Below the pieces are notes generated by a model that worked only from the letters and a program-made list of their open reading frames with translations, did not search any database and was not told the origin of the DNA. This document shows positions 32,131 through 63,183 of a stretch of 64,000 nucleotides of DNA, in pieces. The stretch is from assembly GCA_916048095.2 (NCBI GenBank), contig OU696575.1:11413468-11477467 (forward strand), written 5' to 3'. Source of the DNA: Sacculina carcini (lineage: Eukaryota > Arthropoda > Thecostraca > Sacculinidae). Within the stretch, counting starts at the first letter, position 1, and each line of letters begins with the position of its first letter. Made by a program: the position numbers and the translations under genes.

Positions 32131-63183
<31,053 letters not shown>

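Follow-up and report, generated by a model that had tools for sequence, protein, structure and literature searches.

Within the 64,000-nucleotide stretch of Sacculina carcini DNA analysed here (contig OU696575.1; termed the window and numbered from its first letter), the plus strand carries a largely complete gene for a kainate-type ionotropic glutamate receptor, which lies between roughly 38 and 60.6 kb (Table 1). Its exons were located by tblastn with a rat GluK2 sequence as the query. In order, they comprise five exons of the amino-terminal domain, three of S1, one each of M1-M2 and M3, three of S2 and one of M4. The amino-terminal domain as read has gaps, and the model covers the stretch from these first matches to M4. 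From S1 to M4, every exon has an open frame and is bordered by AG and GT, and the joins keep the frame.

The joined protein matches the Pfam profiles PF01094 (partial), PF10613 and PF00060, arranged as amino-terminal domain, S1/S2 ligand domain and Lig_chan pore, and also scores against PF00497 (SBP_bac_3). The ANF_receptor match (E 5.9e-17) spans profile positions 42-200 of 353. Among solved structures the best match is GluK2 (548.3 bits, E 1.1e-163, alignment from S1 to M4), and the top GluA reaches 451 bits. The glutamate-contact residues, whose roles are taken from passages of PMC5769321, are in place (the S1 Arg, the S2 Thr and the S2 Glu). The gate motif SYTANLAAF is likewise found. Two S1 positions, which we presume to be ligand contacts, read ASMT in the window gene versus APLA in GluK2, and GSMS in a paralogue on contig C4. 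Judged by its sequence, the window gene encodes a kainate-type ionotropic glutamate receptor subunit.

At the joint between S1 and M1, the start AG of the M1-M2 exon leaves the frame two bases short. A proposed microexon brings the joint back into frame and is similar to the linker in one of the pore exons on C4, the Q exon (IPTSQETRLFS); it was chosen from 62 candidates, of which two nested ones passed a filter on the first two residues. Elsewhere in the window, a 343-residue open frame on the minus strand (7605-8636) presumably encodes the transmembrane half of a nicotinic acetylcholine receptor subunit.

Table 1. Features of the window gene and the two M1-M2 exons of its sister gene on C4 (window positions unless a contig is named)
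Feature	Position	Strand	Basis or locus position
Five exon-like amino-terminal-domain matches (38020, 39672, 40479, 44718, 49019)	38020..49234	+	tblastn; ANF_receptor
S1 part 1 (EIPYVMKF...IVGF)	49714..49820	+	tblastn, splice borders
S1 part 2 (YEIVEEKD...IMDK)	50388..50481	+	tblastn, splice borders
S1 part 3, ligand Arg (NYARE)	51012..51116	+	tblastn, S1 domain search
Proposed 32-base microexon, S1-to-M1 joint	51619..51650	+	restores frame
M1 to pore-loop (M2) exon; acceptor ag 54182-54183, donor gtaagt from 54410	54184..54409	+	
CGT, Arg at Q/R site (GluK2 Q621 equivalent)	54383..54385	+	
GGA, Gly at +4 polyamine site	54395..54397	+	
M3 exon, SYTANLAAF gate	56139..56256	+	tblastn, splice borders
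S2 exon, GGSTM ligand loop	58287..58370	+	tblastn, splice borders
S2 exon, ligand Glu in FLMEST	58907..59132	+	tblastn, splice borders
S2 end preceding M4	60006..60170	+	tblastn, splice borders
M4 exon, 3' end approximate	60490..60590	+	tblastn, splice borders
C4 M1-M2 exon, R/G type (LLRQGSGVNPQ)	C4:10019302-10019589		L032:5302-5589
C4 M1-M2 exon, Q/D type (LMQQGSDLNPK)	C4:10024112-10024369		L033:112-369

The Q/R site and the +4 position

The M1-M3 peptide matches GluK2 chains along its entire length (best E 2.6e-51). In this gapless match, which starts at chain residue 554, the Arg at query residue 68 falls on residue 621 (counted by hand), and Q621 is the edited Q/R site of GluK2 according to passages of PMC12580572. 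The original prediction of a genomically encoded Arg at a kainate Q/R site is thus borne out, as is the placement of that Arg, which a faulty alignment could have shifted away from the site. An ADAR-edited Q/R subunit would retain a Gln codon in the genome; here the DNA already reads CGT and the exons are open, and the product is a subunit with a genome-encoded Arg.

The window gene has Gly at +4, a position that GluK2 fills with Glu and the nearest Q paralogues (C4 and C7:6.53 Mb) with Asp, and the residue directly preceding the Q/R site is Leu, not Met. As read from the codons, the pore is altered at both determinants, the Q/R site and +4. All neighbouring pore and gate residues had been described as conserved, which holds for the gate motif but neither for the lost acid at +4 nor for the Leu before the site. 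In our view, an acidic residue at +4 is common in kainate-type receptors rather than defining for the class. A hidden Q exon was not found between window positions 51000 and 57000 with four M1-M2 and three pore-exon queries; one further match in this interval (25.4 bits, 31.6% identity) is without the pore motif.

Pore exons across the genome and the sister gene on C4

The assembly searched (264 Mb, 43 contigs) holds at least 53 places that match Lig_chan (E up to 0.001), and the window M1-M2 exon as query finds 21 places at E up to 1, some of which are halves of one exon. For the comparison of pores, 13 exons from nine loci were aligned; C29 (L002), C6:144 kb (L012) and C9:498 kb (L015) were left out as not cleanly alignable, together with receptor loci that look chemosensory or are otherwise divergent. 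Gln occupies the Q/R site in 10 of the 13 exons, Arg in two (CGT in the window, CGC on C4) and His in one (C9). Asp or Glu stands at +4 in 11 exons, and the two with Gly are exactly the two Arg exons. Gly at +4 is nevertheless not confined to R pores, since the pore of L002 on C29 (TPQGGGEAPR) combines a +4 Gly with Pro as the Q/R residue.

The His exon (C9:6.856 Mb; L010:1471-1764) combines a CAC codon at the Q/R site with Asp at +4 (MHQGTD) and has a long pre-pore linker. At C6:3.08-3.42 Mb, seven places (L021-L024 and L026-L028) share the M3 peptide SFYTANMTAHMTL, identical over 36 residues, and form, judged by the M3 part alone, a cluster of divergent receptor copies. In the stretches examined, three minus-strand receptor genes on C8 (L037), C7:9.53 Mb (L036) and C1 (L035) each have one M1 exon, M3 sequence once (in two pieces in L036) and two tandem pore exons, which on C1 lie only about 60 bases apart. 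All six of these pore exons are of the Q type with an acidic +4 residue. The three loci suggest that splicing of the selectivity filter may be a general device in this lineage. ADAR-type deaminase domains are matched on C30, C25 and C18, and the editing enzyme family is hence present in the genome.

The sister gene on C4 was examined across 10006001-10032000 by tblastn with the window gene and GluK2. Here the amino-terminal domain and M3 are each matched once, S1 is represented by a single pair and S2 by a single set of exons, and M1-M2 is present twice, once as an R/G exon, with Arg at the Q/R site and with Gly at +4, and once as a Q/D exon. Outside M1-M2, the proteins of the window and of C4 share 76.7% identity across the 232 residues of the compared segments, and each is about 65% identical to GluK2. 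The window M1-M2 exon itself is 73% identical to the C4 Q exon and, counting gaps, 44% to the C4 R exon (55% in another alignment). The Arg had been presented as hard-wired; it is indeed fixed in the DNA, and it is no isolated case, as the C4 gene holds a second R/G pore exon. An assembly or base error at CGT is practically negligible as an explanation, because the C4 exon, an independent one from a different contig, encodes this motif too and has CGC as its Q/R codon.

Both C4 M1-M2 exons are bordered by AG and GT and are in phase 0 at start and end. Two separate tandem genes were considered for C4 and rejected, given that a single S1 pair, M3 and S2 set score above 24 bits in the interval. 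A genome-wide S1 domain search also yields that single S1 pair for C4. In view of the tandem homologous exons, the single flanking set and the matching phases, the pair has the apparent layout of mutually exclusive splicing, which is predicted for this gene. Alternatively, the R exon may be a dead relic and the two exons no alternatives at all, a reading we hold to be less likely than not. The M1 and linker of the R exon have diverged far, the exon contains a 10-residue insert, its donor (CAG/gtcatt) looks weak, and open frames in the 4.5-kb stretch between the exons appear transposon-like by eye. Against decay stand 96 codons free of stops, for which the chance in saturated neutral sequence is about 0.01 (a rough figure that assumes equal codon use), the AG/GT borders with shared 0/0 phases, and a pore loop that retains 17 of 20 residues.

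Age and constraint of the R/G pore type

The R/G pore loops of the window and C4 genes differ at three of 20 residues. Over this 20-codon segment the nonsynonymous p is 0.066 and the synonymous p 0.837, i.e., saturated, and the part before the pore has a nonsynonymous p of 0.458; the synonymous estimates rest on about 14 sites for the pore and 45 for the preceding part. By these codon comparisons, the R/G pore loop has been conserved next to a diverging M1 part. Few changes in the pore loop together with saturated synonymous sites indicate that the R/G type is old and constrained and not an assembly error. Because the synonymous sites are saturated, a recent conversion of one R exon by the other was rejected.

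The trees do not decide for or against a common origin of the two R exons from a single R exon. With the pore columns included, the R exons group together (99/97), a grouping driven by the trait itself. Without them, the M1-part tree has no starred branch and leaves the placement of the R exons unresolved, and the approximately unbiased test rejects neither the pairing of the window R exon with the C4 R exon (p-AU 0.322) nor that of the C4 R exon with the C4 Q exon (0.272).

The R/G pore is probably what is standard in a widespread subfamily of arthropod kainate receptors, which would make the window gene an ordinary orthologue and this species unexceptional. The two copies and their saturated synonymous divergence speak for such an old type, and this view is compatible with the functional role proposed below. 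Insect Grik-type subunits are often of the R/G type at the pore. If this is so, the window gene belongs to such an R/G subfamily as an ordinary orthologue, and the novelty lies in the C4 exon pair. Among the matches listed in open-access text (figures and supplements aside), no arthropod kainate receptor with a genomic Arg at the Q/R site, none with an R/G pore and no alternative pore exons came to light, and all of these are likewise absent from passages of the papers cited elsewhere in this text and of PMC7020516, PMC3629306, PMC4670233, PMC8096273 and PMC2924276. Of two text searches of the literature for the peptide, one returned two unrelated papers and the other nothing. Relatives of the window gene were not found in prokaryote genome contigs; a single locus on a viral contig was dismissed as a chance match of 11 residues, and its protein is presumably a phage portal protein.

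Proposed function and known systems

We propose, with a probability of roughly 0.74, that the window gene provides a genome-built R/G subunit with low calcium permeability and little rectification, that this subunit likely enters heteromers together with Q subunits, of which there are several in this genome, and that it would lower calcium permeability, conductance and polyamine block of these channels. The R/G form would represent an old pore type kept by selection in the lineage, and the C4 gene would keep it as one of its two tandem pore exons. Within this proposal, the residues, their site, the open frames and a constrained pore loop are observed, and expression, assembly and permeation are predicted. 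The outcome would resemble what ADAR editing achieves for GluA2 and GluK1/2 in mammals. Editing of the GluA2 Q/R site is the textbook case of RNA recoding essential for the survival of mice.

According to passages of PMC12580572, Arg in edited kainate subunits abolishes calcium permeability and alters conductance, and homotetramers with four Arg are described as poorly conductive in parts of PMC12226733. Because such four-Arg channels conduct poorly, a role in heteromers is likelier for the window subunit than one as a homomer; conduction may be so low that R homomers are near-silent. Taken further, the same poor conduction could mean that an R/G pore hardly conducts at all and that the gene encodes a modulatory or assembly subunit instead of a tuned pore. 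We consider this unlikely: the gate motif, the main ligand residues and the pore helix are kept, the pore loop is constrained, and R/Q heteromers conduct in mammals.

Regarding polyamines, passages of PMC6307864 and PMC12226733 describe block as set by the +4 acid together with the Q/R residue. In the latter source the +4 acid is required for block, its removal leads to more linear currents, and a placozoan epsilon receptor in which Ser was mutated to Arg shows increased, not decreased, rectification. Since Arg raised rectification in this mutant, Arg alone need not abolish it, and Gly at +4 is stronger ground than the Arg for predicting weak polyamine block in the heteromers of the window subunit.

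The vertebrate subunits GluK1 and GluK2 resemble the window gene in subunit type, position and residue in the protein; yet their Arg is edited from a Gln codon and they have Glu at +4, whereas the window gene has CGT in the DNA and Gly at +4. A genomic Arg at the Q/R site is already known from fish GluA2: gria2 paralogues have a chromosomally encoded R codon there (passages of PMC4018279). As in the window gene, a genome-encoded Arg replaces editing, but the fish proteins are AMPA-type and vertebrate rather than kainate-type. Placozoan GluE1 epsilon receptors have Ser, Ala or Leu at the Q/R/N site, and the Ser form shows lower calcium permeation and polyamine block (passages of PMC12226733). 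They share with the window gene a genome-encoded departure from Gln, and differ from it in their epsilon class, in Ser instead of Arg and in the Asp kept at +4 in GluE1-alpha-A. In newly described receptor groups, only one third of the proteins have Gln at the Q/R site, as stated in parts of PMC6307864.

More tentatively, and with slightly less than even confidence, the choice between calcium-permeable Q/D and calcium-poor R/G pores might in this lineage be a matter of gene sequence and splicing rather than of RNA editing. The C4 gene would then switch M1-M2 cassettes that carry both determinants, and the window paralogue would be fixed as R/G. Tandem alternative exons are familiar in ionotropic glutamate receptor genes from AMPA flip/flop, which encodes part of S2; the C4 exons are likewise in tandem, but encode M1 and the selectivity filter. 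If these readings are true, the lineage would have a second means of controlling how much calcium enters through glutamate receptors, by an Arg fixed in the DNA and by exchangeable Q and R exons, and the family would offer a natural test of the paired evolution of the Q/R site and the +4 acid.
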